A stretch of 64,000 nt of DNA from Mycobacteroides chelonae. Lineage in GTDB: Bacteria > Actinomycetota > Actinomycetes > Mycobacteriales > Mycobacteriaceae. This document shows, one piece after another, positions 18,853 through 59,254 of the stretch (positions within the stretch are counted from its first letter, which is position 1; every line of letters starts with the position of its first letter). The translations under genes and the position numbers were made by a program. The notes beneath the pieces are model-generated. The model did no database searches, had not been told where the DNA came from, and saw only the letters and a program-made list of their open reading frames with translations. The stretch is taken from the NCBI RefSeq assembly GCF_016767715.1, contig NZ_CP050145.1, forward strand, positions 2,232,001 through 2,296,000, in the 5' to 3' direction.

Positions 18853-18866
18853 AGTGTGTCAACACT
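18853..18866. promoter_or_regulatory. Inverted repeat upstream of the ssu operon
   Basis: AGTGT-GTCA-ACACT is an exact 5-base dyad with a 4-base spacer, 44 bp before the ssuC start and close to a TTAATTC/ATATTA AT-rich patch that could hold the promoter. A second imperfect dyad (CGGGatagggatACCCG) lies about 60 bp further upstream. It is a plausible operator for sulfur control of the ssu genes, but the cognate regulator is unknown. Confidence 0.3.
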
Positions 18867-18909
18867 GTCGATACGCAGCCGCCGACCCGTGAGGATTCCT
18901 GAGCTTTTC

Positions 18910-19743: not shown

Positions 19744-19753
19744 AAGGCAGATC

Positions 19754-20503: not shown

Positions 20504-21509
20504 GTCCATCGTCAGCGCGACAGCGATCCTGCTGTCATTGACGGCCTGCACCTCCGGCCGCGACGATAAGGGCGATTCCGCAGTGCCGCAGCTCGTCCCG
20601 CTCTCGGAGCTGTCGAATCTCACGCTGCGTGTGGGTGATCAGAAGGGTGGCACCGAATCGCTGCTACGCGCGGCAGGGGAACTGGACAACGCGCCGTACA
20701 AGGTCGAATTCTCCACCTTCACTTTTGGCCCGCCGCAGATCGAGGCGCTGACCGCGGGCAAGATCGACTTTGCCGTCACCGGCAACACACCCCCGATCTT
20801 CGGGGCTGCGTCCAAGGCGAGAATCAAAGTGGTGTCTGGTTATACGAATGACGCCTCCGGTGACCAGATCCTGGTTTCCGACACATCCCCAATCCGATCC
20901 GTGGCAGATCTGCGGGGGAAGAAGGTCGCTGTCGGGAAGGGGAGTTCGGCGAACGGTCATCTGCTACTTCAGCTGCAGAAGGCCAATCTCACCATCAAGG
21001 ACATCCAGCCGGTGTTTCTGCAGCCCGCCGACGCGTTTACCGCACTGAGTCAGGGACAGGCCGACGCCTGGGCGATCTGGGACCCTTACACGGCGCTGGC
21101 CGACAAACAGCTGAAGGTTCGTACCCTGGTGACCGCTACCGGCGTCGCGAACGGATACGGATTCGGCGTCGCTTCGCAGGTGGCACTGCGTGATGCTCAA
21201 CGCAATACCGCACTGTCGGACCTGGTGCAGCGCATCGCGCGTGCCAGCGCATGGGCCCAAGCCCATCCACAGGAGTGGTATGGAAAGTATGCCGCCGCAA
21301 TCGGAATCGACCCCGCCGCAGCTGAGCTGGCACAGTCACGCAGCCTGCGACAACCAATACCGCTTACCGACGAGGTGACGGCCTCGGAGCAGACGCTGAC
21401 CGATCTGTTCGCGCAGTCGGGCCAGATTCAGAGCAAGCCCACGTTCTCTGATTTCGTCGATAACCGGTACAACGATGCACTCAAGCAGTACTTCACCAAG
21501 TCCCAATAA
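20484..21509 (+). CDS. ssuA: Sulfonate ABC transporter substrate-binding lipoprotein
   Basis: Extracytoplasmic binding protein of the NrtA/SsuA/ThiY-like fold, 341 residues. A lipoprotein signal (VFKSIVSATAILLSLTAC) gives an acylated Cys; the mature part carries FAVTGNTPPIFGAA, GKKVAVGKGSSANGHLLLQL and ADAWAIWDPYTA, the typical two-lobe motifs of the family. Start TTG 20484 is preferred because GAGGAG lies 5 bases upstream (20472-20477) and the signal peptide follows at once; the frame is open further upstream inside ssuB. It overlaps ssuB by 20 bp. Confidence 0.88.
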   Translation: MRSLVFKSIVSATAILLSLTACTSGRDDKGDSAVPQLVPLSELSNLTLRVGDQKGGTESLLRAAGELDNAPYKVEFSTFTFGPPQIEALTAGKIDFAVTGNTPPIFGAASKARIKVVSGYTNDASGDQILVSDTSPIRSVADLRGKKVAVGKGSSANGHLLLQLQKANLTIKDIQPVFLQPADAFTALSQGQADAWAIWDPYTALADKQLKVRTLVTATGVANGYGFGVASQVALRDAQRNTALSDLVQRIARASAWAQAHPQEWYGKYAAAIGIDPAAAELAQSRSLRQPIPLTDEVTASEQTLTDLFAQSGQIQSKPTFSDFVDNRYNDALKQYFTKSQ

Positions 21510-21530
21510 CCCACAAGGAGAGCAATTCCC

Positions 21531-22628
21531 GTGGCCGCCAAGTTCTTCTGGTTCCTGCCCACCAATGGCGATAGCCGTTCCATTGTGGGTGCCTCGCACG
21601 CGTCCTCGCATCACACCATCCCGGTGGGTTACCGCGAACCGAGCCTGCGCTACCTCGGCGAGATCGCCCGCGCTGCGGACCGTTTGGGCTTCGAGGGTGT
21701 GCTGACGCCCACCGGCACCTGGTGTGAGGATGCGTGGCTGACGGCATCGGCGCTTCTGGAGCAGACCGAACGTCTGAAGTTCCTGGTCGCCTTCCGGCCC
21801 GGCCTGGTGCCACCCACACTCGCCGCACAGCAGGCCGCCACCTTCCAGCGGTTCTCCGAAGGGCGCCTGCTGCTGAACGTTGTCAGCGGCGGCGACGACA
21901 CCGAGCAGCGCCGCTTCGGCGATTGGCTCACCCACGACGAGCGTTATGAGCGGACCGGGGAGTTCCTGCAGATCGTGCGGGACATCTGGAAGGGTGATCC
22001 CGTCGACTATTCGGGCAAGCACTACACCGTGACCGACGCGCGGGTCTCGGAGCCGCCAACACCCTTGCCGCAGCTGTATTTCGGAGGCTCCTCTCCGGCC
22101 GCGTTGCCCATCGCGGCCGATCATGTGGACGTGTACCTGACGTGGGGCGAGCCGCCTGCCGCGGCCGCGGCGAAGATCGAGACGGTGCGTGCCCTGGCGA
22201 AGGAACGCGGGCGCACCCTTCGATTCGGCATCCGGCTGCACACGATCACGCGGGATACCTCCGAGGCGGCCTGGGCCGTCGCCGATTCGCTCGTGGCGGA
22301 GTTGACCCCGGAGCAGGTGGCGACGGCCACCGCGTTGCATTCGAAGTCCGAATCCGAAGGCCAGCGGCGCATGACGGCGCTGCACGGCGGTCGGCTCGAC
22401 AAGTTGGAGATCTACCCGAACCTGTGGGCCGGTGTCGGGTTGGTGCGCGGCGGTGCGGGTACGGCGCTGGTGGGCAGTCATGAAGAGGTCGCGAATCTGA
22501 TCTCCGAGTACCACGCGCTCGGGTTCGACGAGTTCATCTTGTCCGGATACCCGCACCTTGAGGAGGCCTATTGGTTCGCCGAGGGTGTGCTCCCTCTGCT
22601 CAAGAAGCGGGGAGCGCTGGCGGCCTAG
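21531..22628 (+). CDS. ssuD: FMNH2-dependent alkanesulfonate monooxygenase-like enzyme
   Basis: Luciferase-like flavin monooxygenase of 365 residues, close in size to SsuD. It desulfonates alkanesulfonates to an aldehyde plus sulfite, using reduced FMN from a separate reductase. Visible elements: FFWFLPTNGDSR at the N-terminus, the central LLLNVVSGGDDTEQRRFGDW, the LYFGGSSPAAL phosphate-binding segment and the C-terminal FDEFILSGYPHLEEA. Start GTG 21531 follows AAGGAG. No flavin reductase (SsuE) is in the operon. The stop overlaps the stop of the convergent SCO6745-like gene by 4 bp. Confidence 0.9.
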   Translation: MAAKFFWFLPTNGDSRSIVGASHASSHHTIPVGYREPSLRYLGEIARAADRLGFEGVLTPTGTWCEDAWLTASALLEQTERLKFLVAFRPGLVPPTLAAQQAATFQRFSEGRLLLNVVSGGDDTEQRRFGDWLTHDERYERTGEFLQIVRDIWKGDPVDYSGKHYTVTDARVSEPPTPLPQLYFGGSSPAALPIAADHVDVYLTWGEPPAAAAAKIETVRALAKERGRTLRFGIRLHTITRDTSEAAWAVADSLVAELTPEQVATATALHSKSESEGQRRMTALHGGRLDKLEIYPNLWAGVGLVRGGAGTALVGSHEEVANLISEYHALGFDEFILSGYPHLEEAYWFAEGVLPLLKKRGALAA

Positions 22629-43822: not shown

Positions 43823-44692
43823 ATGGAGATTCATCAGCTGCGCTACCTGCTAGCGGTCGCGGACGCATCGAGTTTCACCAAAGCCGCCGCCGCCATGCAT
43901 GTCGCCCAGCCGGGTGTGAGCGCTCAAATCCGGCTTCTGGAGCGCGAACTAGGGCAGGATTTGTTTGATCGATCGGGGCGTCGGGTCCGCCTTACCGATG
44001 CGGGCGAGGCGGTAATTCCTTATGCGCGAGCCGCTCTCGCTGCGGTTGCCGGGGTGCGTGAGGCGGCAGACGAGATTGGCGGACTCCTCCGCGGGCATAT
44101 CGCGTTCGGCACCGTGACGTCGCATGGCGTAGACCTATCATCGCTGCTCTCCGCGTTCCATCGTGATCACCCGGCCATCACCATCACCCTCACCGAGGCG
44201 GTGCGCGAGGACCTTGTTACCGGGTTGCGCGATGGCAGGCTGGACGGGGCGATTGTGGCGCTGGGGGCGCAGCAGCTTGAGGGGCTGGGATTACAGGTCA
44301 TCGACGATCAGCCCTTGGTGGCGGCGTTCGCGGCCGATGACCCGTGGGCGAAACGGCGCACGGTCACGCTCGAGAGGCTCTGTGAACGCACCCTGATCTG
44401 CCTGCCCACCGGCAGTGGTGTGCGGTCGATCCTGGAAACCGCGTGTCGATCGGCAGGCCTCACCCCGAATGTGGCCTTTGAAGCGAGCTCACCGCGAGCG
44501 TTGGTAAGCCTTGTTGAGCAGGGACTCGGAGTGGCGGTGGTACCTGCCCCGTACGTCCGGAGCCGGCACGGGGTGGCGGCATCGGATATCCGGCCCGCGC
44601 TGCGCGGCAGACTTGCACTGGCCTGGCGCCTCGGCGGTCCGGCCGGCCCTGCGGCGCGGGTCTTCCTGGAACGGGCCCGCGCCGCTCTCTGA
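43823..44692 (+). CDS. LysR-family transcriptional regulator
   Basis: LysR regulator of 289 residues. The N-terminal winged HTH (MEIHQLRYLLAVADASSFTKAAAAMHVAQPGVSAQIRLLERELG, residues 1-44) has the family pattern, followed by a linker helix and a two-lobe effector domain (IAFGTVTSHGVDLSSLLSAF onward). It is transcribed divergently from the flavin monooxygenase and most likely controls it, using an aromatic effector. The effector cannot be read from sequence. Confidence 0.92.
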   Translation: MEIHQLRYLLAVADASSFTKAAAAMHVAQPGVSAQIRLLERELGQDLFDRSGRRVRLTDAGEAVIPYARAALAAVAGVREAADEIGGLLRGHIAFGTVTSHGVDLSSLLSAFHRDHPAITITLTEAVREDLVTGLRDGRLDGAIVALGAQQLEGLGLQVIDDQPLVAAFAADDPWAKRRTVTLERLCERTLICLPTGSGVRSILETACRSAGLTPNVAFEASSPRALVSLVEQGLGVAVVPAPYVRSRHGVAASDIRPALRGRLALAWRLGGPAGPAARVFLERARAAL

Positions 44693-44895
44693 CTGCCGTT
44701 CCGATCACTCTGAATCCAATCCGGCGCCGCGGGCGACGGTGGCGCAATGGTGCGCATGCGACCGTCCGTTGCAGGTAGGGGCGGGTAGGAACCGGCGCAT
44801 TGAAGCCGACCTGACAGATATCGAATTCATCCGCCAGATGGCCACTGAGCTGGCCTTTAGCGTGTTGGCGAGGTTATCTCACGTCAGGAGGACTG

Positions 44896-45639
44896 GTGGC
44901 TGCTGCCGAGCCCACGCCATTGCGCCGCCCGCGCGCCGATCAGGCGCGACTGGTGGCCGATGTGCTGCGTCACCAGATCCACGCCGGCGCATACGCCGAC
45001 GGCGGCCTGCCGAGCGAGCACGACCTGGCCGCGGAGTTCTTCGTTTCGCGCAACACCGTCCGCGAGGCGCTCACGACGCTGAAAGAGGAAGGCCTCATCG
45101 AGCGGGGTCCGCGTACCGGTACCCACGTGGCGCTGCGGAAGTACGAGCACGGCCTGGACGCGTTGCTGGGGCTGAAAGAAACATTCAAGGGATACGGCGA
45201 GGTCTGGAACGAGGTTCGCGTCATTCAGGAGGTGAACGCGCCTCCCGCGGTCGCGCACAGGTTGCGCCTTGATCCCGGCGCGCGGGTCATCTTCATCGAG
45301 AGGTTGCGATACCTCGGAGACCTACCGCTGAGCCTGGACAAGACCTATCTGACCTCGGATGTGGGGGAGGCGGTCATCGAGCACCAGCTCGAGAGCAACG
45401 ACGTCTTCGCCCTGATCGAGCGCGTCACCGGACACAGATTGGGATCGGCCAACTTGGCCCTGGAGGCGGTCTCGGCGGATTCGCATTCGGCCGCGACGTT
45501 GCAGGTACCCGATAACGCACCGCTACTGCTCCTGGAACGACTGACCCACCTCGACGACGGGACCCCCGTCGACCTCGAGTACATCCGAATGCGCGGTGAT
45601 CGAATCACTTTGCGCAGCAATCTACTAAGGGATATCTGA
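44896..45639 (+). CDS. GntR/HutC-type transcriptional regulator of the ABC-flavoprotein operon
   Basis: GntR regulator with a UTRA effector domain, 247 residues. The winged helix (LVADVLRHQIHAGAYADGGLPSEHDLAAEFFVSRNTVREALTTLKEEGLIERGPRTGTHVA, about 20-80) is followed by the chorismate-lyase-like UTRA domain (VIFIERLRYLGDLPLSLDKTYL, LLLLERLTHLDDGTPVDLEYIRM). GTG 44896 follows a perfect AGGAGG. It is the first gene of a tight unit; ferredoxin starts 8 bp later. The operon ligand probably binds the UTRA domain. The upstream 203-bp gap holds no other gene. Confidence 0.9.
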   Translation: MAAAEPTPLRRPRADQARLVADVLRHQIHAGAYADGGLPSEHDLAAEFFVSRNTVREALTTLKEEGLIERGPRTGTHVALRKYEHGLDALLGLKETFKGYGEVWNEVRVIQEVNAPPAVAHRLRLDPGARVIFIERLRYLGDLPLSLDKTYLTSDVGEAVIEHQLESNDVFALIERVTGHRLGSANLALEAVSADSHSAATLQVPDNAPLLLLERLTHLDDGTPVDLEYIRMRGDRITLRSNLLRDI

Positions 45640-45647
45640 GGCTTCGC

Positions 45648-45875
45648 ATGACATTGGTCAACAACCGTATCGACGTTCCGGTCACCATCGACGAGTCGCT
45701 GTGCATCGAGGGCTGCACGTTGTGTGTCGACATCTGCCCCCTGGACTCGCTGGCCATCAATCCCGAGAACGGCAAGGCATTCATGCATGTCGATGAGTGC
45801 TGGTACTGCGGACCGTGCGCGGCCCGCTGTCCCACCGGTGCGGTCACCGTCAACATGCCCTATCTCATCCGTTAA
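45648..45875 (+). CDS. 2[4Fe-4S] ferredoxin, AprB-like partner
   Basis: Small iron-sulfur protein of 75 residues with two cluster motifs: Cx3Cx2Cx3CP (CIEGCTLCVDICP) and Cx2Cx2Cx3CP (CWYCGPCAARCP). The extra residue in the first motif and the position next to an AprA-like flavoprotein recall the electron-transfer subunit of adenylylsulfate reductase. It is likely the electron donor or acceptor for the flavoprotein at the end of the operon. ATG 45648 is 8 bp after the GntR stop. Confidence 0.9.
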   Translation: MTLVNNRIDVPVTIDESLCIEGCTLCVDICPLDSLAINPENGKAFMHVDECWYCGPCAARCPTGAVTVNMPYLIR

Positions 45876-45888
45876 GTCAGGACAGCTC

Positions 45889-47286
45889 ATGAAGAGAACA
45901 GCCCTTCTCTCCGCACTTCTTCTCACCGTCGTCACCGGCTGCTCGCTGGATTCCGGGTCCGGCTCGGCCAATGAAGTGACAGTCGTCGTCGGATACCAAT
46001 CAAAGACCATCAACACCGTGACCGCGGGCACGCTGCTGCGGGCGCAGGGCTACCTCGAGAAGCGGCTCGCCGAGGCCGGATCGCGCACCGGGACCAAGTA
46101 CACGGTGCAGTGGCAGGACTATGACACCGGAGCGCCGATCACCGCGCAGATGCTCGCCGAGAAGATCGACATCGGCTCGATGGGCGATTACCCGCTGCTG
46201 ATCAACGGATCCAAGACCCAGACCAACGAGAAGGCACGCACCGAACTCGTGTCGATCACCGGTTACAACGCCAAGGGCGCACTCAACATGGTTGTAGTGC
46301 CACCGAATTCACCGATCACCACGCTGCCCGAGCTGAAAGGGAAGAAGGTGTCCGCCAGTGTGGGCTCGGCGGGGCACGGCACGTTGGTGCGCGCGCTGCG
46401 CAACGAGGGTCTGGACCCGGCCAAGGATGTCGAGGTGTTGAACCAGCAGCCGCAGGTCGGTGCCTCTGCGCTGGAATCCGGTCAGGTGCAAGCGTTGTCA
46501 CAGTTCGTGGCGTGGCCGGGGCTGCTGGTCTTCCAGAAGAAGGCCAAGCTGCTCTATGACGGTGCCGAGCTGAACGTTCCCACCTTCCATGGGGTGGTGG
46601 TGCGCCGTGACTACGCCAAGCAGCATCCGGAGGTGCTGGACGCCTTCCTGCAGGCTCAGCTTGATGCAACCGATTTCATCCACGAGAAGTCTCTGGAGGC
46701 GGCGCGCCTCGTGGCCGAGGGCAGCGGCCTGCCGCAGGAGGTGGTGTACCTCTACAACGGGCCCGGTGGTACATCGTTCGATACCACCCTCAAGCCCTCT
46801 CTCATCGAGGCCTTCAAAAGCGATGTGCCCTACCTGAAATCGATCGGTGACTTCGCCGATCTGGACATCGATCAGTTCGTGCAGGATGGACCGCTGCGCC
46901 AGGCCTACACGACGCGCGCCAAGAACTACGAGACCGAACTGGCGGCCAAGGCCAATCCGCTGGTGCTGCAACCGGACGCCGGGGCAGATCCGGGCCAAGC
47001 CGCCGAAATCTGGTTCGATGGTAAGGATTCCACGCAGGTATATGCGACGGCGCAGGAGCTGTTGAAGGCCGTGAACGCGGCGAACGCGTCCGGCCAGAAG
47101 ATTCGCGCCGCCTATATCTCCGATGCCGAGTTGGGTACGCGGTGGTTCGCCGATCATGCCTGGTGGGTTCGCGACTCGGCCGGGCTACGTCCGTTCACCA
47201 CGAACGCGGGTGCCACCCGGTACATCTCTACTCATCCCGGCGCGACACCCTTGGATTACGCACAGGCTCTGGCGGCGGCATCATGA
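45889..47286 (+). CDS. ABC substrate-binding lipoprotein with a NosL-like C-terminal domain
   Basis: Extracytoplasmic lipoprotein of 465 residues (signal MKRTALLSALLLTVVTGC). Residues about 25-350 are a SsuA/NrtA-type two-lobe binding protein (VVVGYQSKTINTVTAGTLLR, KVSASVGSAGHGTLVRALR). Such proteins normally end near 330 residues. Here a further 105 residues (about 360-465) have a pattern like NosL, the copper-binding accessory protein of nitrous-oxide reductase: an IWFDGKDSTQVYATAQELL strand-helix, IRAAYISDAELG, and WWVRDSAG ending in a Thr/Gly-rich segment. I saw no free Cys in this tail, so metal binding is uncertain. The start ATG 45889 is supported by the lipobox, and the stop overlaps the permease start as ATGA. 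Confidence 0.85.
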   Translation: MKRTALLSALLLTVVTGCSLDSGSGSANEVTVVVGYQSKTINTVTAGTLLRAQGYLEKRLAEAGSRTGTKYTVQWQDYDTGAPITAQMLAEKIDIGSMGDYPLLINGSKTQTNEKARTELVSITGYNAKGALNMVVVPPNSPITTLPELKGKKVSASVGSAGHGTLVRALRNEGLDPAKDVEVLNQQPQVGASALESGQVQALSQFVAWPGLLVFQKKAKLLYDGAELNVPTFHGVVVRRDYAKQHPEVLDAFLQAQLDATDFIHEKSLEAARLVAEGSGLPQEVVYLYNGPGGTSFDTTLKPSLIEAFKSDVPYLKSIGDFADLDIDQFVQDGPLRQAYTTRAKNYETELAAKANPLVLQPDAGADPGQAAEIWFDGKDSTQVYATAQELLKAVNAANASGQKIRAAYISDAELGTRWFADHAWWVRDSAGLRPFTTNAGATRYISTHPGATPLDYAQALAAAS

Positions 47287-48161
47287 GCAGCCTGCCCATC
47301 TTGGAGGCGCGACCGCGAGCGATCGCGGTGCCCCCCGCCGGTGACCGGATCGGCGAGGCCGCGCGTACCCGTCGGCTGGGTTCTCGCTACCTGGCCTGGG
47401 GTATCCGGGCCTCGTCCGTGGCTGCGGCGGTACTGCTCTGGCAACTTTTGACGGTCAACAAGGTGCGTTTCGGTCTGCGATTCGACACTCTTCCCACGGT
47501 CACCGAGATCGTCTCGGCCCTCGCTAAACATATTGGGACCGAGCAGTATTGGCTGGATCTTGGCCAGTCCACCATTCGGATTCTCACCGGTTTCGGCCTG
47601 GCGGCGGTGTTCGGCGTCATCACCGGAATCTGGCTGGGGCGTTCTCCGCTGTTCGCGAACATCGTCGGCCCGTTCACCGAGTTGGCTCGCCCAATTCCGG
47701 CGATCGCGATCGTGCCGGTGGCCATCCTGCTGTTTCCCAGCGATGAGGCAGGGATCGTGTTCATCACATTTCTCGCGGCCTACTTCCCCATCATGGTGAG
47801 CACGCGGCACGCGGTGCGTGCTCTGCCCACGCTGTGGGAGGACTCGGTCCGCACCCTGGGCGGCAGCCGCTGGGATGTGCTGCTCCGGGTGGTGTTGCCC
47901 GGCAGCCTTCCGGGAGTCTTTGGCGGTCTCTCGGTAGGCATCGGTGTCGCGTGGATATGTGTGATCTCCGCCGAAATGATCTCGGGTCGTTTGGGTGTCG
48001 GGTACCGGACGTGGCAGTCGTACACGGTGCTGGCCTATCCCGATGTGTTCGTCGGGATCATCACCATCGGCGTTCTCGGATTCCTGACCTCGGCGGCCGT
48101 CGAGCTGATCGGTCGCCGGGTGACGCGGTGGTTACCCCGCGCCGAGGAGGCGCGCTCATGA
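47283..48161 (+). CDS. ABC transporter permease of the flavoprotein operon
   Basis: Membrane subunit of a nitrate/sulfonate/taurine-type importer, 292 residues. After a polar N-terminus come about six helices (YLAWGIRASSVAAAVLLWQLL onward) and the EAA coupling loop (PTLWEDSVRTLGGSRWDVLLRVVLPGSLPG). Start ATG 47283 overlaps the binding-protein stop, and its stop overlaps the ATPase start, so the three transport genes are translationally coupled. Confidence 0.9.
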   Translation: MSSLPILEARPRAIAVPPAGDRIGEAARTRRLGSRYLAWGIRASSVAAAVLLWQLLTVNKVRFGLRFDTLPTVTEIVSALAKHIGTEQYWLDLGQSTIRILTGFGLAAVFGVITGIWLGRSPLFANIVGPFTELARPIPAIAIVPVAILLFPSDEAGIVFITFLAAYFPIMVSTRHAVRALPTLWEDSVRTLGGSRWDVLLRVVLPGSLPGVFGGLSVGIGVAWICVISAEMISGRLGVGYRTWQSYTVLAYPDVFVGIITIGVLGFLTSAAVELIGRRVTRWLPRAEEARS

Positions 48162-48901
48162 GTGCCTCCACCCTCGTCCTTGACGGGGTCACCCTCGGAT
48201 ACGGCGGCCGCACCGTCGTGAACCGTCTGAGCCTGACGGTGCGCCCCGCGGAAATTCTTGTCCTGACCGGACCGTCGGGTTGTGGCAAGTCCACCGTGCT
48301 GCGCGGGCTGGCCGGGCTGCTCGCACCCGACTCGGGCACCATTCACGCCGACGGCGAGAAGGTTGTCACCACCTCCCGGCACCGTGCCATGGTGTTCCAG
48401 GACAACGCGTTGTTGCCCTGGCGCACAGTGCAATCGAACGTGGAGCTGGCCCTCAAGCTGGGCGGTGTGCCGCGTGCGGGGCGGCGCCAGGCGGCACAGA
48501 CCTGGATCGATGACGTCGGTCTGACGGGCTTTGAAGACTACCTGCCCAAGAGCCTCTCGGGTGGCATGCGCCAACGTGTTCAGCTGGCCCGCGGCCTGGC
48601 TGGTGCTCCGCGTGCGGTCATGATGGACGAGCCGTTCGGAGCACTCGACGCTCAGACTCGCGCCAGCATGCAGCGCCTGCTGATCGATACCTGGCGCAGC
48701 CATCCCACCACGGTGGTGTTCGTGACACATGATGTGGACGAGGCGCTGCTACTCGGCGACCGAATCGCCGTCCTGGGCCGCGCTGGTCAGCCGCTGCGTG
48801 CGCTGCTGGATGTTCCCGATCCCCGTGAGGCCGACAGCGATCGGAGCGCGCTGCGCGCCGAAATCCTGGCCGCACTGAACCATACGGAGCTTGTCGCCTG
48901 A
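48158..48901 (+). CDS. ABC transporter ATPase of the flavoprotein operon
   Basis: ATPase subunit of 247 residues. Walker A GPSGCGKST, the Q-loop segment MVFQDNALLPWRT, signature LSGGMRQR, Walker B AVMMDEPFGALDAQTR and switch VTHDVDEA are complete. The stop shares one base with the ATG of the flavoprotein gene (TGATG), showing coupling of transport to the oxidoreductase. Confidence 0.92.
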   Translation: MSASTLVLDGVTLGYGGRTVVNRLSLTVRPAEILVLTGPSGCGKSTVLRGLAGLLAPDSGTIHADGEKVVTTSRHRAMVFQDNALLPWRTVQSNVELALKLGGVPRAGRRQAAQTWIDDVGLTGFEDYLPKSLSGGMRQRVQLARGLAGAPRAVMMDEPFGALDAQTRASMQRLLIDTWRSHPTTVVFVTHDVDEALLLGDRIAVLGRAGQPLRALLDVPDPREADSDRSALRAEILAALNHTELVA

Positions 48902-51582
48902 TGCAGATCCCTGAACTTGACAGTGCCATCCGGCTGGACTGTGACGTCCTGGTCATCGGCGGTGGAACCGCCGGAACCATGGCGGCGCTGACCGCGGCCG
49001 AGAACGGCGCCCAGGTGATTCTTCTCGAGAAGGCACATGTGCGGCACTCCGGTGCGCTGGCGATGGGTATGGATGGTGTGAACAACGCCGTCATCCCCGG
49101 CAAGGCCGAACCCGAGGACTACGTCGCGGAGATCACCCGCGCCAACGACGGCATCGTGAACCAGCGCACCGTGTATCAAACGGCGACACGCGGTTTCGCG
49201 ATGGTGCAGCGCCTCGAGCGCTACGGGGTCAAGTTCGAGAAGGACGAGCACGGTGAGTACGCCGTACGGCGCGTGCATCGGTCGGGCTCCTACGTGTTGC
49301 CGATGCCCGAGGGTAAGGACGTCAAGAAGGCGTTGTACCGCGTGCTGCGGCAGAAGTCGATGCGAGAGAAGATTCGCATCGAAAACCGCGTCATGCCGGT
49401 GCGGGTACTCACCGATGAAGGCAGAGCTGTCGGCGCCGCGGGTTTCAACACCCGTACCGGTGAATTCGTCACGGTCGGCGCGAAAGCGGTGATCCTGGCC
49501 ACGGGGCCGTGCGGCCGCCTAGGTCTGCCCGCCTCGGGTTACCTGTACGGCACGTATGAGAATCCGACCAACGCGGGGGACGGGTACGCGATGGCGTACC
49601 ACGCCGGGGCCGAGCTGTCGGGCATCGAGTGCTTCCAGATCAATCCGCTCATCAAGGATTACAACGGTCCGGCCTGTGCGTATGTGGCCAACCCATTCGG
49701 CGGCTATCAGGTGAATGCCCGGGGAGAGCGCTTCGTCGACTCCGACTATTGGTCCGGCCAGATGATGTCCGAGGTCAAGAACGAAATCGAGTCCGCACGC
49801 GGTCCCATCTACCTCAAGGTGACTCACCTGCCGGATGAAACGTTGTCGGCGCTGGAGAGCATCCTGCACACCACCGAGCGGCCCACCCGCGGCACCTTCC
49901 ACGCCAACCGCGGACATGACTACCGCACCCATGACATCGAGATGCACATCTCCGAGATCGGTTTGTGTAGTGGTCATTCGGCGTCGGGCGTGTGGGTGGA
50001 TGAGCATGCGCGCACCACGGTGCCCGGCCTATATGCGGCCGGAGACCTGGCCTGCGTGCCGCACAACTACATGATCGGCGCCTTTGTGTATGGAGATCTG
50101 GCCGGCGAGCATGCGGCCTCGACGCTGTCGAAAACGCCTGCACCGCTGGAGTTCCCCGTCGACCAGGTCAAGGAGGCTCATGAGCTGATCTACCGTCCGT
50201 TGCGCCACCCGGACGGGCCTCCGCAGCCTCAGGTCGAGTACAAGCTTCGCCGCTTCGTCAACGACTATGTGGCCCCGCCGAAGACGGCGGCCAAGTTGTC
50301 ATTGGCGGTGCAGACATTTGAGCGAATGGCCGACGAGGTAGGTCAGATCGGCGCGCGCACCCCGCATGAGCTGATGCGGGCGGCCGAAGTGTCGTTCATC
50401 AGGGACTGCGCTGAGATGGCGGCGCGCTCGTCGCTGACTCGCACCGAATCACGGTGGGGCCTCTACCACGACAGGGCAGACCTGCCGGACCGTGATGACG
50501 AGAACTGGCGCTATCACCTTAACCTGCGGAAGACCTCTGACGGCGCCATGGACTTCGTGAAACGGCCCGTCGCACCCTATTTCGTCCCGGTCCCGGGTCT
50601 CGACGACCTGCCGTCGGGGGAGACCGATCCGATCCCAGTGCATCAGCCCGAACTGCTGGGCGGAAAGGCGCCCGCCGCTCGTCTCTTGAACGTGATCGCC
50701 GCCGAGGCCGAGCAGCCGCCGTCGCCGCGGATCGCCGCGGTGTTGTCCTTGGAGGCGCCCACCGTCGAGGAGCTGCTGCAGTACCTCGTCGACGACGATC
50801 CGGGCGTGCGCCGCACTGCCATCGCCTCGCTCACCGAGCACATCCCCGCGGGTTACGAGGGGGCCCTGTTGAATGCGTTGGGGGACAGCGATGCGTCCGT
50901 GCGCCGCACCGCCGCCGACGGAGTGCGCGAGCTTGTCGAGGTACTCGAGGATCCCGCCGCGATTGGCGATCATGTCAGCGCATCCGATCCGTTGGTGCGT
51001 AGCACCGCGCTGTACGTGGCGAGTGCCCGGAAGGTCGGTGACCCCGCCGCCTACGTCGCGTCGGTGCGCGACTCAGATCACCGGGTCCGGATCGAGGCCG
51101 TACGTGCCCTGGTGTCAGTGGACGACGCGGTGTCCATCGCCACCGCTGCCGAAGATGAGAACCGTGAGGTGCGGATTGCCGTAGCCAACGGGCTTGCGAA
51201 GTTGGCTGCCGGTAGCGCGACGGTGCGGATGCTGGTGCGTGACCGCGACCCCTTGGTGCGGGCCGCGGCGTTGACGGCTGTTGGTGCGCTGGGCGTCGAC
51301 GACCAGATCTTCGATGCCGTACGGGAGGCGCTGAAGGCTCCGGCCTGGCAGATCCGTCAGGGTGCGGTGCGTGCGTTGGCCGGAGCGGATCCGGGGCAGG
51401 CCGTACCGCCGCTGGCGCGCGCCCTGGACGATCCACATCTGGATGTACGGAAGTCGGCGGTGTTGAGCCTGAGTCAGTGGGCCTCCACGGAGCCCACCGT
51501 CCGTGACGCGCTGACCGGTGCGTTGCAAGATGGCGACGCTGACGTGAGAGCCTATGCGCGACAAGCACTTGCGGCCGGCTGA
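48901..51582 (+). CDS. AprA/fumarate-reductase-type flavoprotein fused to HEAT-like repeats
   Basis: Predicted FAD oxidoreductase of 893 residues. Residues about 15-580 match the fumarate reductase/succinate dehydrogenase/adenylylsulfate reductase alpha family: FAD motif VLVIGGGTAGTMAALTAAENG, the HSGALAMGMDGVNNA isoalloxazine region, and the FAD-binding LYAAGDLACVPHNYMIGAFVYGD. The adjacent ferredoxin and the MGMDGVNNA segment are closer to AprA than to fumarate reductase. The C-terminal 290 residues are a solenoid of HEAT/PBS-lyase-like repeats (units such as LVDDDPGVRRTAIASLTEH, LGDSDASVRRTAADGVREL). This fusion is unusual for the family. The substrate is unknown; it may be the compound brought in by the ABC system, or sulfite or a related oxyanion. 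Confidence 0.88.
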   Translation: MQIPELDSAIRLDCDVLVIGGGTAGTMAALTAAENGAQVILLEKAHVRHSGALAMGMDGVNNAVIPGKAEPEDYVAEITRANDGIVNQRTVYQTATRGFAMVQRLERYGVKFEKDEHGEYAVRRVHRSGSYVLPMPEGKDVKKALYRVLRQKSMREKIRIENRVMPVRVLTDEGRAVGAAGFNTRTGEFVTVGAKAVILATGPCGRLGLPASGYLYGTYENPTNAGDGYAMAYHAGAELSGIECFQINPLIKDYNGPACAYVANPFGGYQVNARGERFVDSDYWSGQMMSEVKNEIESARGPIYLKVTHLPDETLSALESILHTTERPTRGTFHANRGHDYRTHDIEMHISEIGLCSGHSASGVWVDEHARTTVPGLYAAGDLACVPHNYMIGAFVYGDLAGEHAASTLSKTPAPLEFPVDQVKEAHELIYRPLRHPDGPPQPQVEYKLRRFVNDYVAPPKTAAKLSLAVQTFERMADEVGQIGARTPHELMRAAEVSFIRDCAEMAARSSLTRTESRWGLYHDRADLPDRDDENWRYHLNLRKTSDGAMDFVKRPVAPYFVPVPGLDDLPSGETDPIPVHQPELLGGKAPAARLLNVIAAEAEQPPSPRIAAVLSLEAPTVEELLQYLVDDDPGVRRTAIASLTEHIPAGYEGALLNALGDSDASVRRTAADGVRELVEVLEDPAAIGDHVSASDPLVRSTALYVASARKVGDPAAYVASVRDSDHRVRIEAVRALVSVDDAVSIATAAEDENREVRIAVANGLAKLAAGSATVRMLVRDRDPLVRAAALTAVGALGVDDQIFDAVREALKAPAWQIRQGAVRALAGADPGQAVPPLARALDDPHLDVRKSAVLSLSQWASTEPTVRDALTGALQDGDADVRAYARQALAAG

Positions 51583-51656: not shown

Positions 51657-53042
<1,386 letters not shown>

Positions 53043-53060
53043 TCGTCTGCCGCCGGTCGC

Positions 53061-53077
53061 GCACGCACAACGCGTGC
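53061..53077. terminator. Hairpin between convergent mbtI and mbtA
   Basis: GCACGC-ACAAC-GCGTGC is a 6-bp GC-rich stem with a 5-base loop in the 71-bp gap between the two convergent stops. A second small dyad, GATCGG-CAC-CCGATC, follows at 53090-53104. There is no T-run, as is usual for mycobacterial terminators, so the function is inferred from position. Confidence 0.45.
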
Positions 53078-53113
53078 TTGAGTGGCTGAGATCGGCACCC
53101 GATCGGCTGAGGC

Positions 53114-54778
53114 TTAGCCCGTCAACGAGGCGAGCAGGGCGCGTTTGTCGATCTTGCCCACTGCGGTGAGGGGCAGCGAGGGGACCGCCACCAGTTTGTC
53201 GACTCGCGAGTGTGCGGCGGCACCGCGGTCCTGTAGGTGCTGATTCAGCTCGGCGGCCGCAACCGGCTTTCCCTTGAACACAATTGCGGCACAAACAATC
53301 TCACCGAGATACTGATCCGGTAATCCGACTGCGGCGGCAGCGTAGACCGCCGGGTGAGTCTGTAGGTGCGATTCGAGGTCCAATGCGGCGATGGACTCCC
53401 CGCCGCGCAGGATGACGTCCTTGATGCGACCAGTGACTTCCAGATAGCCACCCGGTCGCGCCCGTACCCGATCGCCGCTGCGGTAGAAGCCGTCGGCGGT
53501 GAAGGAGCGCATGTTGTCGGCCTCAGCCCGGTAGTACCCGTTGAGTGTGTACGGACCGCGGACCAACAGCTCACCTGCCTCACCCGGGGCCACCTCGGCG
53601 CCGTCCTCGTCGACGATGCGAACCTCGTCGGCCTCACACATGGGTCGGCCCTGGGTGTTGTCGAGGACGTCCGAGGGGTCTCCGGGACGGGTCAGGCACA
53701 GTAGGCCCTCCGCCATACCGAAAACCTGCTGCAATCCCGGGGTGAGTGATTCTCGAACCGTGCGTGCGTCCTCGGCGCCGAGCTTCGCACCGCCCACCTG
53801 AAGCAGCCGCAGTGTTTCCGGCAGCACGGGCTCCCAGGCGGTGGCCTGTGCCCAGAGCTGGGCGAGCGATGGCACCAGCGCCGTCACAGACACCCGGTGG
53901 CGCGTGATGGTCTCAAATGCCGACTCCGGGCTCGGATCCGAAAGGAAAACCGTAGTGGCACCTGTGCTTATCGCGCCGATGAGACCAGGACATGCCAGTG
54001 GGAAATTGTGACCGGCGGGCAGCGCCACGAGGTAGACATCGTCCTCGGTGAGGCCGCACACCTGTGCGGCCCGCGACGCGTTGTAGACGTAGTCCTCATG
54101 GGTGCGGGGGATGAGTTTGGGTGCCGCGGTGGTGCCACCCGAGACCAGCAGCAACGCCGGGTGGTCCGTCTGCGCTGTCGGTAGGTCACCTTGAACCTCA
54201 ACGCTTTCCAGCAACCCTGACCAGGCGGTGAAGCGGTCGGGGGCATCGGCCGGTACGTCACCATCGATCACGATGTGGCGCAGGCAGGCATGCTTTGTGG
54301 ATAGCTCGACGGCCAGTGCGCTGTAGTCGAACCCGCCAGCGGAATCGGTGATCACCAGGGCGACGGCATCGGCAACCTCGATGAAATGAGACAACTCAGC
54401 GGCGCGGTGTCCCGGCAGGCACATGATCGGTATCGCGCCAGCACGCATCAAACCGAAGAATGCGACCGCAAATGATGTCCGGTTGGGAAGCTGCAGCAGT
54501 ACACGGTCGCCGGGGACGATGCCCAGTCGGGTGAAGGCATGCGCCGCGCGGTCGGCGGCCACGTCGAGCTCGCGGTAGGTCATCGCGTGGTGCTCGTCGA
54601 TAACCGCGGGATGATCGGCACGTCTGGCGGCGGTCGTGCGCAGCAGCGACTCGACGGTCCTTCCGGTCCAGTACCCGGCCGCGCGATATGCGTCGGCACG
54701 CGCCGCGGGAAAGGGTACAAAGCCTTCCGCCGCGGCCGCTTCAGCCGAAGGGATGGGGGTCGATGTGGCCTGAGTCAT
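53114..54778 (-). CDS. mbtA: Salicyl-AMP ligase MbtA
   Basis: Adenylating enzyme that activates salicylate and loads it on the first mycobactin carrier protein. 554 residues, of the DhbE/EntE/MbtA class. The nucleotide motif is LLLVSGGTTAAPKLIPRTH, the aromatic-acid pocket region GHNFPLACPGLIGA, then QVFGMAEGLLCLTR, FYRSGDRVRARPGGYLEVTGRIKD and the C-terminal catalytic Lys in TAVGKIDKRALL. Start ATG 54778 leaves 25 residues before the family core. It is divergent from the NRPS gene across a 99-bp IdeR-type control region. Confidence 0.96.
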   Translation of the reverse strand: MTQATSTPIPSAEAAAAEGFVPFPAARADAYRAAGYWTGRTVESLLRTTAARRADHPAVIDEHHAMTYRELDVAADRAAHAFTRLGIVPGDRVLLQLPNRTSFAVAFFGLMRAGAIPIMCLPGHRAAELSHFIEVADAVALVITDSAGGFDYSALAVELSTKHACLRHIVIDGDVPADAPDRFTAWSGLLESVEVQGDLPTAQTDHPALLLVSGGTTAAPKLIPRTHEDYVYNASRAAQVCGLTEDDVYLVALPAGHNFPLACPGLIGAISTGATTVFLSDPSPESAFETITRHRVSVTALVPSLAQLWAQATAWEPVLPETLRLLQVGGAKLGAEDARTVRESLTPGLQQVFGMAEGLLCLTRPGDPSDVLDNTQGRPMCEADEVRIVDEDGAEVAPGEAGELLVRGPYTLNGYYRAEADNMRSFTADGFYRSGDRVRARPGGYLEVTGRIKDVILRGGESIAALDLESHLQTHPAVYAAAAVGLPDQYLGEIVCAAIVFKGKPVAAAELNQHLQDRGAAAHSRVDKLVAVPSLPLTAVGKIDKRALLASLTG

Positions 54779-54832
54779 CGCAGCTCCTCGTGGGTGACCC
54801 CTCGCAGTCTAGATAGGGTAGCCTCCTCGTAG

Positions 54833-54851
54833 TTAGGGCAGCCTGTACTAA
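54833..54851. promoter_or_regulatory. IdeR-like iron box between mbtA and the NRPS gene
   Basis: TTAGGGCAGCCTGTACTAA matches the IdeR consensus at 13 of 19 positions with both ends (TTAGG, ACTAA) good. Another similar but poorer segment, ATAGGGTAGCCTCCTCGTA, lies about 20 bp to the left, next to mbtA. Two adjacent boxes between divergent mbt genes are common in mycobacteria. Confidence 0.6.
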
Positions 54852-54877
54852 GAGCGAAAACGCGAGGTGAGATCGAG

Positions 54878-57800
54878 TTGCGCACCGTGAGCGATGGTGG
54901 CGTCGAGGTGGACGTCACCAGCCGAAGGGCGTCGGCAGGCCTCGACCCCGATGCCGCGCCACGGCTGTCCGCAGGGCAGCACCGCATATGGTTCGCCCAC
55001 GGGGTGACGCCCGCGCTGATGAACCTGTGCCGTTCGTACCGGCTCAGCGGTGAGGTGGATATCGAGAGATTGCGGGCCGCTGTCACCGCGGTGGTGGCCC
55101 GCCACGAGACCTTGCGCACGACGTTTCGCGCCGGCCCTGACGGCGAACCGGTGGCCGTGCTGCACGAAGACCTACCGGTCCGATGGGTCGAGCACGATGT
55201 CAGCGACCTTGCGGGCACCTCGCAAGAGCTCCGGCTGGGCGTGCTGGCGCAGCGTGAATTCGCGACTCCGATCGATCTCACCGTGGACTCGCCGCTGCGT
55301 GTCACGGTCATCCGCACCGGCGCCGCGGAACATGTGATGCTCGTCGTCGCCCACCTCATCGCATGGGACGACGACTCCTGGTCGGTATTCCTTGCCGATC
55401 TGACTACCGCGTACGTACACGGCGTGATTGCGGAACCGCTACCGGTACGGCCTCCGCACGATGGGGCCGATCAGGCGGATCTCGAGTACTGGCGTGACGA
55501 GATGGCCAATCCTCCTGAGCCGCTGGAGCTTCCGGGCGTCAATGGCTCGGTGGCTGCGAGCGACTGGAAGGCCGCACGTTGCACGGCGCGTCTTTCGGCC
55601 TCGGTCATGGGCCGCGTCGAGCAACTTGCGCAAGAGTCAGGCACCACACCGTATGTGGTGTTGTTGGCCGCGTATTCAGCGCTGCTGCATCGGTATACAC
55701 ATGCCGAAGACTTCCTGGTGGCCGCGCCGGTTCCCACACGGGAAGCTCACGCACAGGGCAGCATCGGGCACTTCGGGCACACCGTCGCGCTCCGCATGCG
55801 TCCGCACAGCGGTGAGAGCTTCCGGGATCTGCTGGCGAATGCACATCGGACCACTCTGAACGGGTTTGCCCACCAACGGGTGAGTCTGGACCGCGTGGTT
55901 GCGCGCGTGGGCTTCGCGATGGGTGCCGATTCCGCCGCCCGGTTCTGCCCACCTGGAATCCACTGTGAAAGAACATCATTGGAAGGGCAGGTGGCATACG
56001 TGCCGCTTGGCCTGCGGATCGAAACCGGGCTCGATGGCGCCGAGGTGGTGGCCGAGTACCTGGTGGACGTGTTGGATGAGCGTTTGACCACGCAGATGCT
56101 CCGTCACTTCGCCAATCTGCTCGACTCCGCGCTCGCCGATCCGAACCGCCCGCTGGCCAGTCTGGATCTCATGGACGGTCGCGAAGCCCAGTGGCTGCGG
56201 GAGGTGTCGTCCGGAGAACTATTTGAGGCGGAGCCGACGACGCTCGGCGAGCTGGTGGCCGCCCGCGCGGCCGCACAACCGGATGCCACCGCGCTCGTCT
56301 ACGAGGGGCGGCACTACTCGTATCGGAAGACCAACGAACTCGCGAACCAGCTGGCGCACTGGATCATTGGGCAGGGGATCGGTACCGAAGATCATGTCGC
56401 GGTGCTGCTGGACAAGTCGCCGGATTTGATCATTACCGCGCTCGCCATCGCCAAGGCCGGTGCCGTCTATGTCCCCGTTGATCCGAATTACCCCGCTGAT
56501 CGCATTGCGCACATCCTCAGCGATGCGCAGCCGAAGTTGGTCATCCGGGAGCCGGTAACCGGTGTTGAGCAGTTCGACCCCCGTGAGCCGGTCGATGCGG
56601 ACCGGGTGCGGCCGCTGACCGCCGACAACGCCGCCTATCTCATCTACACATCGGGTTCGACGGGCCTGCCCAAGGGTGTGACGGTCACGCATCGTCCGCT
56701 GACCGAGTACTTCAACTGGTTCCGTGCTGAGTATCGGGTCAGCGGATCCGATCGGGTACTGCAGGTGGCTTCGCCGAGCTTCGACGTATCAGTGGGCGAG
56801 ATTTTCGGCATCCTCAGCTGCGGTGGCCGGCTGGTCATCCCGCGTCCGGGCGCACTCGGTGACGTCGCGTATTTGACGGAACTGTTGAACAGCGAGGGCG
56901 TTACCTCGATGCACATGGTGCCCTCGTTGCTGGGGCTGGTGCTGTCTCTACCCGGAGTCACGCAATGGAAATCGCTACGCCGGGTGCCGGTGGGTGGTGA
57001 GGCGTTGCCCGGTCCGGTCGCGGACAAGTTTCACGCCACTTTCGATGCGTCGCTTCATAATTTCTATGGTCCCACCGAGACCGTCATCAACGCCTCACGG
57101 TACAAGGTGCGCGGAATTCAGGGGACGCGGACCGTTCCGATCGGTACCCCCAAGATCAACACGCAGATTCACATCCTGGACCAGACGCTGCGACCGGTGC
57201 CGGTGGGGGTCATCGGCGAGATCTACATCGGCGGAACGCATGTGGCGCGCGGCTATCATCGGGCCGCCGGTCTTACCGCGCAGCGCTTCATCGCCGATCC
57301 CTTCGTTCCCGGGCAGCGGATGTACCGGTCCGGTGATCTTGCGCGGCGTAGCGCGAACGGAGACATCGAGTTTGTCGGTCGCGCCGACGAGCAGGTGAAG
57401 ATCCGAGGGTTCCGTATCGAGCTCGGTGAAATCGCCTCGGCCATCGAGGTAGACCCGAGCGTGGGCCAGGCGCTCGTGGTGGTTGATGAGCTGCCGCACG
57501 TCGGCAAGCGTCTTGTTGCGTACCTGACTCCGGTCGGTGGACACGTAGTCGATCTCGATCGAATCCGTGCCAGGATTTCGGCTGCCCTGCCCGACTTCAT
57601 GATTCCCGCGGCGTATGTCGTGCTCGACGAGATGCCCATCACCCGGCACGGCAAGATCAATCGGGACGCTCTGCCGGCACCGGAGGTCGGGTCCGTGACC
57701 AGACGCCGGGAGCCGGAAACCGCGACTCAGCGACAGGTAGCGGCTCTTTATGCGCGCTTGCTCGGGGTTGCGACTGTGGGTGCGGACGACTCGTTCGTCG

Positions 57801-59254
57801 ATCTAGGGGGCCATTCGCTGCTGGCGAGCAAGCTATCGGCGGCGATCCTGACCGAGTGTGGAGTCGGGGTGGACATCCGCGAGATCTTGGAGCGGGGCAC
57901 TGTCGCAGGCTTGGCCAAGTTGGTCGACCAGCGTCGTAGCGGGCTCGTCGCGGATGACGAGGATCGCGAGGGCGAGCCAATCCCGTTGCTTCCCAGCGGT
58001 CGTCGCCTCTATGAGCATGGAAACCCGCGTAGGCTGGCCGAAACTCACGTCTTCTGGCTGCCCGAGGGCATTACCCGATCCACGCTCGAGGAACTTCTCA
58101 ATGCGGTGGTCGGGGAGCACGAGGTGCTGCGCAGCCGGCTTGACCGCGAGCGCCTGGAGCTGGTTCCGCGCACGCGGCAGTCTCTCCGGTTGGTCGAGAT
58201 TCTTACGGAGGATCCGTCCGATGCGGCCGGTGCCGAGATCGGCCGTGCGGTGGACCGACTCGATCCTGAACAGGGCTGGATGCTCTCGGCGGTATGGCTG
58301 CACCCTGAAGGCGAGCCCGGAGTCCTCATCCTCGTGGTGCATCAGCTCGCCGCTGACCCCACCTCCTGGCGAGTCATCATGCAGGAGCTGGAATCTCGAT
58401 GGCAGTCGCTGGTGGCGGGTGCTGTGCCGCCCAACTCTCAGACCGGTGGTGGCTACCGCCGTTGGGCCAATGCGTTGGTCGCCGAGGCTCGGGATGTGGG
58501 CAGCCTGCCGTTCTGGATCGCCCAGCTGGACGGTGAGGATCCCCCAATTGGTTCGCGTCGAATAGAGCCCGAACTCGACAGGGAGGCCGATGTGGCGGTC
58601 ACCGTCGAGTCCGCGCCGGCCGATGTCAGTGCGGTCCTGCTGAACTCGGGGATTCCGATGGAGCAACTGCTGGTGGCGGCAGTGGCACGCACCGTGGCCC
58701 AGTGGCGTCGCCGCCGCGGGCAGGCCGCGGTCGAGACGCTGCTGGCGGTGCAGGTCTCCGGACGCGGGGACGCGACTGCTGAGACTGTGGGTCTGCTCGG
58801 TACGGCGTATCCGCTACGCGTGGGTGGCACCGATCCGCTGGGGATCGGACCGCGCGGTTTGGTGGAGCGAGTCGCCCGGCAGCACAGCGCGGTGCCAGGG
58901 CGGACCATCGACTACGGGCTACTGCGATACCTGCGTGCCGACACCAGCGCGGTGCTGCGGCAGTATCGCGATCCGCAGATCCTGTTGAACTACCTCGGAC
59001 ACGATCGTGGATTCGAGGGCGACCTCCTACGCCGCGATGGCTTGCTTTCGGTATCGGGTTCGCCTGTGCCCGAGCCGGAATCGGCGGTGCGTCACGAGCT
59101 CAGCATTGCGGTGCTGATCATGGGGACCACCGAGGGGCCGTCCATCGGAACGCTGTGGCAGGCGGTCCCGGAGGTGCTCGAGCGCTCGGAGATTACCGAG
59201 CTGCAATCGATTTGGCACGAACAGCTGGGGATTCTGGCGAAGGAGCTATGGTGA
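54878..59254 (+). CDS. mbtF: Mycobactin NRPS, MbtF-type (C-A-PCP-E)
   Basis: Nonribosomal peptide synthetase of 1458 residues, nearly the length of M. tuberculosis MbtF (about 1460), which installs the terminal hydroxylysine of mycobactin. Domains: condensation about 25-450; adenylation about 465-950 with TSGSTGLPKG near 590, FDVSVGEIF, NFYGPTETVINAS, YRSGDLARR and HGKINRDALP; carrier protein with Ser980 in DLGGHSLL; and an epimerase-like terminal domain about 1035-1458 with HQLAADPTSWR at 1155 and ILLNYLGHDRG. The condensation motif at His159 reads HLIAWDDDSW instead of HHxxxDG, so the usual second, catalytic His is Leu. The Gly in FDVSVGEIF is found in codes for basic amino acids. GTG-type upstream region carries IdeR boxes; the stop lies inside the mbtG start. 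Confidence 0.92.
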   Translation: MRTVSDGGVEVDVTSRRASAGLDPDAAPRLSAGQHRIWFAHGVTPALMNLCRSYRLSGEVDIERLRAAVTAVVARHETLRTTFRAGPDGEPVAVLHEDLPVRWVEHDVSDLAGTSQELRLGVLAQREFATPIDLTVDSPLRVTVIRTGAAEHVMLVVAHLIAWDDDSWSVFLADLTTAYVHGVIAEPLPVRPPHDGADQADLEYWRDEMANPPEPLELPGVNGSVAASDWKAARCTARLSASVMGRVEQLAQESGTTPYVVLLAAYSALLHRYTHAEDFLVAAPVPTREAHAQGSIGHFGHTVALRMRPHSGESFRDLLANAHRTTLNGFAHQRVSLDRVVARVGFAMGADSAARFCPPGIHCERTSLEGQVAYVPLGLRIETGLDGAEVVAEYLVDVLDERLTTQMLRHFANLLDSALADPNRPLASLDLMDGREAQWLREVSSGELFEAEPTTLGELVAARAAAQPDATALVYEGRHYSYRKTNELANQLAHWIIGQGIGTEDHVAVLLDKSPDLIITALAIAKAGAVYVPVDPNYPADRIAHILSDAQPKLVIREPVTGVEQFDPREPVDADRVRPLTADNAAYLIYTSGSTGLPKGVTVTHRPLTEYFNWFRAEYRVSGSDRVLQVASPSFDVSVGEIFGILSCGGRLVIPRPGALGDVAYLTELLNSEGVTSMHMVPSLLGLVLSLPGVTQWKSLRRVPVGGEALPGPVADKFHATFDASLHNFYGPTETVINASRYKVRGIQGTRTVPIGTPKINTQIHILDQTLRPVPVGVIGEIYIGGTHVARGYHRAAGLTAQRFIADPFVPGQRMYRSGDLARRSANGDIEFVGRADEQVKIRGFRIELGEIASAIEVDPSVGQALVVVDELPHVGKRLVAYLTPVGGHVVDLDRIRARISAALPDFMIPAAYVVLDEMPITRHGKINRDALPAPEVGSVTRRREPETATQRQVAALYARLLGVATVGADDSFVDLGGHSLLASKLSAAILTECGVGVDIREILERGTVAGLAKLVDQRRSGLVADDEDREGEPIPLLPSGRRLYEHGNPRRLAETHVFWLPEGITRSTLEELLNAVVGEHEVLRSRLDRERLELVPRTRQSLRLVEILTEDPSDAAGAEIGRAVDRLDPEQGWMLSAVWLHPEGEPGVLILVVHQLAADPTSWRVIMQELESRWQSLVAGAVPPNSQTGGGYRRWANALVAEARDVGSLPFWIAQLDGEDPPIGSRRIEPELDREADVAVTVESAPADVSAVLLNSGIPMEQLLVAAVARTVAQWRRRRGQAAVETLLAVQVSGRGDATAETVGLLGTAYPLRVGGTDPLGIGPRGLVERVARQHSAVPGRTIDYGLLRYLRADTSAVLRQYRDPQILLNYLGHDRGFEGDLLRRDGLLSVSGSPVPEPESAVRHELSIAVLIMGTTEGPSIGTLWQAVPEVLERSEITELQSIWHEQLGILAKELW

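Follow-up and report, generated by a model that had tools for sequence, protein, structure and literature searches.

What does a compact bacterial operon do when it joins an ABC (ATP-binding cassette) importer of the sulfonate type to a small ferredoxin and to a large flavoprotein that databases list as a fumarate reductase? We address this question for such an operon from Mycobacteroides chelonae, located within a 64,000-nucleotide stretch (hereinafter the window; positions 2,232,001 to 2,296,000 of contig NZ_CP050145.1) in a genome of 5.06 Mb assembled as one contig. A largely similar gene set spans three phyla, Actinomycetota, Pseudomonadota and Cyanobacteriota, and, given this recurrence, the operon is probably a genuine, as yet unnamed route for obtaining sulfur. 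Because a sulfonate-type importer is combined here with an enzyme from a family acting on sulfur oxyanions and, in other genomes, with loosely sulfur-linked neighbours, we consider the likeliest role to be the release of sulfite from an imported sulfonate by a flavin-ferredoxin enzyme of the kind represented by AprAB and by the reductase (PAPSR) of 3'-phosphoadenosine 5'-phosphosulfate (PAPS), a proposal that we put forward tentatively.

The six genes form a single run on the forward strand (44896-51582) and encode, in this order, a GntR-UTRA regulator (44896..45639; PF00392 and PF07702), a ferredoxin of 75 amino acids (aa) with a match to the two-[4Fe-4S] domain (45648..45875), a substrate-binding protein probably of the SsuA/TauA fold, judging by family and fold matches (45889..47286), a permease of the NrtB/TauC/SsuC type (47283..48161) and an ATPase of the TauB/SsuB type (48158..48901), both assigned by family models, and the flavoprotein (48901..51582), an 893-aa fusion with matches to FAD_binding_2, Succ_DH_flav_C and HEAT. 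The FAD domain of the fusion (48901..50580), the part corresponding to PRK08275, resembles AprA and the PAPSR alpha subunit by family, profile and fold matches, and the C-terminal HEAT-repeat domain (50725..51576), detected as a domain match, comprises about nine helix pairs in the predicted model. The successive junctions are gaps of 8 bp and 13 bp, two 4-bp ATGA overlaps and a 1-bp overlap (TGATG); the start of the binding protein was taken at 45889, a longer mechanical open reading frame (ORF) from 45724 overlapping the ferredoxin gene in a different frame. An earlier note, made from the DNA letters alone, had described six tightly packed genes with gaps of at most 13 bp and three start-stop overlaps, which is exact, and had named a flavoprotein with HEAT repeats, a ferredoxin, an SsuA-type binding protein and a GntR regulator, all of which are matched by family models.

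The arrangement is not due to chance, since the order GntR-ferredoxin-binding protein-permease-ATPase-flavoprotein on one strand is kept in 50 of the 58 Mycobacteriales loci, a set that comprises every matching genome besides that of the window. Among the eight exceptions (loci are cited by our labels), L157 and L209 are without the importer, L210 has a binding-protein match and a same-strand ATPase match with no permease, and L158 has no GntR or ferredoxin gene within the fetched stretch, the ferredoxin being found elsewhere in the same genome; the order differs in L171, additional DNA separates permease from ATPase in L187, and L193 and L201 are located at contig ends. In all but two of these 58 loci the flavoprotein frame is longer than 800 aa; the length in L189 was misread, its start having been extrapolated, and L171 has a separate HEAT match. 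In the proteobacterial set, drawn from the relatives of the Cupriavidus pinatubonensis flavoprotein (the best 80 of at least 581 that were confirmed), 67 loci show the order GntR-flavoprotein-ferredoxin-binding protein-permease-ATPase-HEAT. Seven others (L044, L046, L053, L055, L097, L110, L113) retain GntR, flavoprotein, ferredoxin and HEAT with no importer, L045, L068 and L101 are without a detected GntR gene, and L065, L089 and L095 are short fetched stretches. In the proteobacterial and cyanobacterial loci examined, HEAT has a gene of its own. Genes for flavoprotein, ferredoxin, HEAT and Mrp/NBP35 are all present on three cyanobacterial plasmids, with intervening genes in Nostoc; flavoprotein, ferredoxin and HEAT are likewise present on plasmids of Rhizobium, Sinorhizobium, Methylobacterium, Methylocystis and Acidithiobacillus, in several of which Crp/Fnr or other regulators replace GntR.

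Of 151 genomes of the family, 35 contain the flavoprotein (E<=1e-100), and a comparison of the lists by eye shows the ferredoxin (E<=1e-15) to be present in exactly these genomes. At E<=1e-60, the binding protein occurs in 36, namely, 34 of the 35 flavoprotein genomes and two with paralogues of 48-50% identity. Long paralogues of the binding protein (47-52% identity) were seen in genomes G049 and G052, both without the flavoprotein, and as second copies in G022, G099 and G146. The conserved co-occurrence that the earlier note had proposed to look for was thus found, and the linkage backs its view of a single import-plus-redox module; the notion of a local curiosity is not supported, as the gene set is widespread and the fusion is already modelled in NCBIfam as PRK13800. 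Among the matches listed, the open-access literature yielded neither a characterised pathway that fits the operon nor any description of the operon system; AsfAB, discussed below, came closest.

The flavoprotein is a full-length member of PRK13800 (residues 1-891; score 1755.8 bits, cut-off 1196), a family that covers the flavoprotein-HEAT fusion and is named 'fumarate reductase/succinate dehydrogenase'; among the matches listed, the proteins of Mycobacteroides franklinii and M. saopaulense are 93% identical to it. By sequence profile, the closest PDB families are the PAPS reductase alpha subunit, in first place, and AprA, in second; in the fold comparison, which relies on a predicted model that is weak around the substrate site, PAPS reductase is again first and AprA is level with FrdA. 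The PDB matches of the 75-aa ferredoxin, in turn, include AprB and PAPSR-beta. The likeness to AprA/AprB suggested by the earlier note is supported by the profile matches. The PAPS reductase of Methanothermococcus thermolithotrophicus (8a8o) and AprAB each combine an FAD-containing alpha subunit of the fumarate-reductase family with a two-[4Fe-4S] beta subunit, and, judged by sequence, the operon enzyme would be built alike: Trp52 of the ferredoxin adjoins the second cluster, as the tryptophan of these beta subunits does, and the histidine of the PAPSR GGH motif corresponds to His359, which is invariant in 15 of 15 sequences. The operon differs in adding a HEAT domain and an importer and in the small size of its ferredoxin. 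The flavoprotein scores below the cut-offs of the NCBIfam models of adenosine 5'-phosphosulfate (APS) reductase (279.5 of 557 bits for PRK06854, 145.1 of 641.75 for TIGR02061). Among the 7999 candidates listed, 6735 passed, a number that includes superfamily relatives and is not a count of the family proper.

The active site departs from those of both relatives. Arg265 and His398 are presumably the catalytic residues of AprA, and Glu141 of the A. fulgidus protein is one that we take to bind APS. Arg265 aligns with an invariant leucine (Leu250) of the flavoprotein, and His398 lies beyond the printed 2fja alignment. The loop at the APS-binding site reads VHRSGSYVLPMPEG and is preceded by a five-residue insertion, with V132 at the position of A. 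fulgidus Gln145, which the available portion of PMC10322725 names among the APS-binding residues. Lys120, Arg121 and Ser122 of the PAPS loop in the M. thermolithotrophicus enzyme correspond to S130, Y131 and V132, which stand beside an insertion. The alignments thus indicate that the residues conferring specificity for APS and PAPS, the nucleotide-recognition residues among them, are replaced.

The binding protein appears to have the SsuA/TauA fold, and TauA and SsuA are its nearest families, whether judged by sequence or by structure, in agreement with the SsuA/NrtA-type importer of the earlier note. The importer seems to share binding-protein fold, permease type and ATPase type with SsuABC and TauABC; its binding protein, however, is about 140 aa longer than SsuA or TauA and carries an extension at its C-terminus (about 47002-47262), putatively NosL-like in most relatives scanned. 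Seven of nine relatives match NosL (PF05573) at E<=1 (best 1.3e-6) and the window copy does not; Met, His and Cys are absent from the conserved columns listed, and no NosL structure appears among the 50 matches listed in the binding-protein structure comparison, which is barely a test of the tail. The importer models score under their family cut-offs, a nitrate permease model gives the highest score for the permease, also under its cut-off, and the binding-protein fold matches CmpA, NrtA, Thi5 and PqqT as well. The imported compound might, then, be no sulfur source at all but a ligand of the nitrate, bicarbonate or cofactor-precursor type that is reduced or oxidised. We regard this as unlikely in view of the closer affinity of the binding protein to TauA and SsuA and of the nearest profile families of the enzyme, which act on sulfur oxyanions.

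In a survey of 13 annotated plasmid loci, chosen by hand from 65 matching plasmid records, neighbours that we judged by reading to be loosely sulfur-linked were present in seven (L037, L040, L271, L272, L275, L276, L279) and absent from six (L038, L041, L042, L273, L274, L278), a raw tally. Under the mechanism that we propose, the importer would be dedicated to a sulfonate-like compound, and the flavoprotein and the ferredoxin would form a cytoplasmic two-part enzyme akin to AprA-AprB or to the alpha and beta subunits of methanogen PAPSR. Low-potential electrons would pass from the two [4Fe-4S] clusters via the tryptophan to FAD, and the reduced flavin would attack the imported compound at its sulfur; the resulting flavin-sulfite adduct would release sulfite, which would then be assimilated. 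GntR may sense the compound or a product and control the operon through a paired GGCGYAAT site, and the HEAT domain could serve as a docking or assembly surface. A more specific version, which we consider conceivable but doubtful, is that the enzyme constitutes a third branch of the AprAB/PAPS-reductase group, an assimilatory, ferredoxin-driven reductive desulfonase that would dispense with O2, act on an organosulfonate (or an N- or S-sulfonate) via a flavin N5-sulfite adduct, and, labelled as fumarate reductase, have spread across Actinomycetota, Pseudomonadota and Cyanobacteriota. Bacteria are known to desulfonate by means of oxygenases, glycyl-radical enzymes and lyases; should the proposal hold, reductive sulfite release by a conserved, mislabelled flavin-ferredoxin enzyme would join these routes. 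Sulfonates make up a major share of soil sulfur according to the available part of PMC4267179, and a widespread new route would bear on sulfur cycling as well as on how a large protein family is annotated.

Alternatively, the flavoprotein and ferredoxin might only supply electrons to a monooxygenase or another desulfonating enzyme encoded elsewhere in the genome, much as the asf genes, in the same portion of PMC4267179, are said to provide a tool-kit of reductase and ferredoxin for electron transport that complements ssu. About 22 kb upstream within the window there is indeed an ssu operon (18856-22628), as the earlier note had recognized; its SsuC- and SsuD-type proteins were identified by family models and the SsuB- and SsuA-like ORFs in between by eye. 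However, the flavoprotein is strongly conserved, with column identities averaging 72% in a set of 15 sequences from three phyla, as expected of an enzyme with a substrate site of its own, and no neighbour common to most mycobacterial loci was seen: the largest cluster of other neighbours, in an unannotated clustering based on a simple ORF caller and including some antisense artefacts, occurs in 18 of 58. Furthermore, the protein that is probably AsfA in C. metallidurans CH34 is a distant homologue, and a purely auxiliary role accordingly seems to us improbable.

Still less probable is that the operon is the AsfAB system for aromatic-sulfonate desulfurisation under a different regulator. The parts are alike: asfRABC of P. 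putida S-313 is described as a cluster of reductase/ferredoxin, binding protein, ABC transporter and LysR genes required for the use of aromatic sulfonates (PMC4267179, in part), sharing with the operon a flavoprotein-ferredoxin pair and SsuA-type uptake genes, and asfA is reported from Rhodococcus and Williamsia in the accessible sections of PMC4267179 and PMC9694294. However, the operon regulator is of the GntR-UTRA type whereas AsfR is LysR-type, and CH34, which the available text of PMC2864759 credits with asfRAB (AsfA/AsfB being Rmet_4334/5), has no close relative of the family: the best match of the C. pinatubonensis member in this genome has about 28% identity (E 5e-14), and none exceeds 29%. 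We therefore dropped AsfAB as the identity of the operon. In the 680-980 kb portion of CH34 CHR2 a single small two-cluster ferredoxin was found, which adjoins a 549-aa flavoprotein of a different clade; tag spacing from czcA and cusA would place Rmet_4334 at about 0.91-0.93 Mb of CHR2, so this pair is probably Rmet_4334/5. Against this identification weighs the failure to find a LysR gene next to the pair. The surrounding stretch (CHR2 921000-937500) encodes, besides the 549-aa flavoprotein and the 111-aa ferredoxin, an SsuA-family binding protein and ABC genes close by, and no HEAT protein was noticed beside the pair in the ORF list. The 549-aa protein has other NCBIfam affinities, with a top score for fumarate reductase, and reaches only 37 bits with 8a8o; on sequence grounds the pair appears to be a second, distant clade of the same overall design. 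A homology search, whose best 120 of 4610 matches bore generic names only, did not single out one CH34 protein as AsfA, and the available parts of PMC3506598, PMC4070957, PMC10441942 and PMC9694294 do not give an AsfA sequence.

That the flavoprotein is a true fumarate reductase (FRD) or succinate dehydrogenase (SDH) is, despite its superfamily membership, its NCBIfam name and the second place of FrdA by fold, scarcely credible, as it scores far below the FRD/SDH cut-offs and the SdhA residues that we take to be the catalytic Arg and the substrate-binding His and Arg are apparently replaced: the Arg preceding the DVVAR segment falls within an insertion and has no counterpart (Ser or Cys directly precedes the aligned Asp), His242 corresponds to Asn248, and Arg399, in the RLGGN loop, is absent. 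The fumarate reductase/succinate dehydrogenase name of PRK13800 and PRK08275 is thus, as far as the alignments tell, unsupported by the active-site residues.

Upstream of the operon is a candidate operator pair (44739..44801, forward strand), with GTGGCGCAAT at 44739 and an imperfect copy, GGCGCATT, at 44794, at a spacing of 53 bp. Of 56 GntR upstream regions, each 300 bp long, 39 contain the sequence GTGGCGYAAT (mean of 0.04 in mononucleotide shuffles) and 38 contain paired GGCGCAAT-like copies with at most three mismatches in total and 53-55 bp spacing (mean of 0.18 in shuffles), the window's own pair, with one mismatch and hence not exact, being counted among the 38. The loci share descent, so these shuffle controls overstate the significance of the pair. 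In the genome-wide test, the exact pair GGCGYAATN{44,47}GGCGYAAT occurs in 15 of 151 genomes, that of the window not among them, directly upstream of the operon's GntR gene in 11 and in genomes without the operon in four, while the reversed control pattern gave two matches in the 151 genomes. On this basis the pair is largely specific to the operon, and GntR would be the protein that binds it. An Rfam scan at the promoter returned a single chance-level match (13.9 bits versus 39). A LysR-like gene, recognized by eye, lies upstream (43823-44692), outside the conserved set.

The operon genes were not identified in the available parts of PMC7661421, PMC8557817, PMC2996968 and PMC12892962, and nothing on the operon was noticed among the listed titles and abstracts retrieved under guessed M. 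abscessus locus tags. An expression lead, P. phymatum Bphy_7232-37 beside SoxCD (PMC8305402, in part), was rejected, the stretch having a weakly similar importer and no flavoprotein match. In one proteobacterial locus a DUF971 (GBBH-like_N) gene follows HEAT (L056:15254-15535); its cluster is represented in 43 of the 80 proteobacterial loci, with the domain checked in L056 alone. Together with the Mrp/NBP35 genes close to HEAT in three cyanobacterial loci, this suggests a dedicated iron-sulfur maturation helper. Directly downstream of the operon, the window contains mycobactin-type siderophore genes (51681-59254), including those for a salicylate synthase (TIGR03494), a (2,3-dihydroxybenzoyl)adenylate synthase-like protein that scores below the cut-off and an ORF resembling nonribosomal peptide synthetases.

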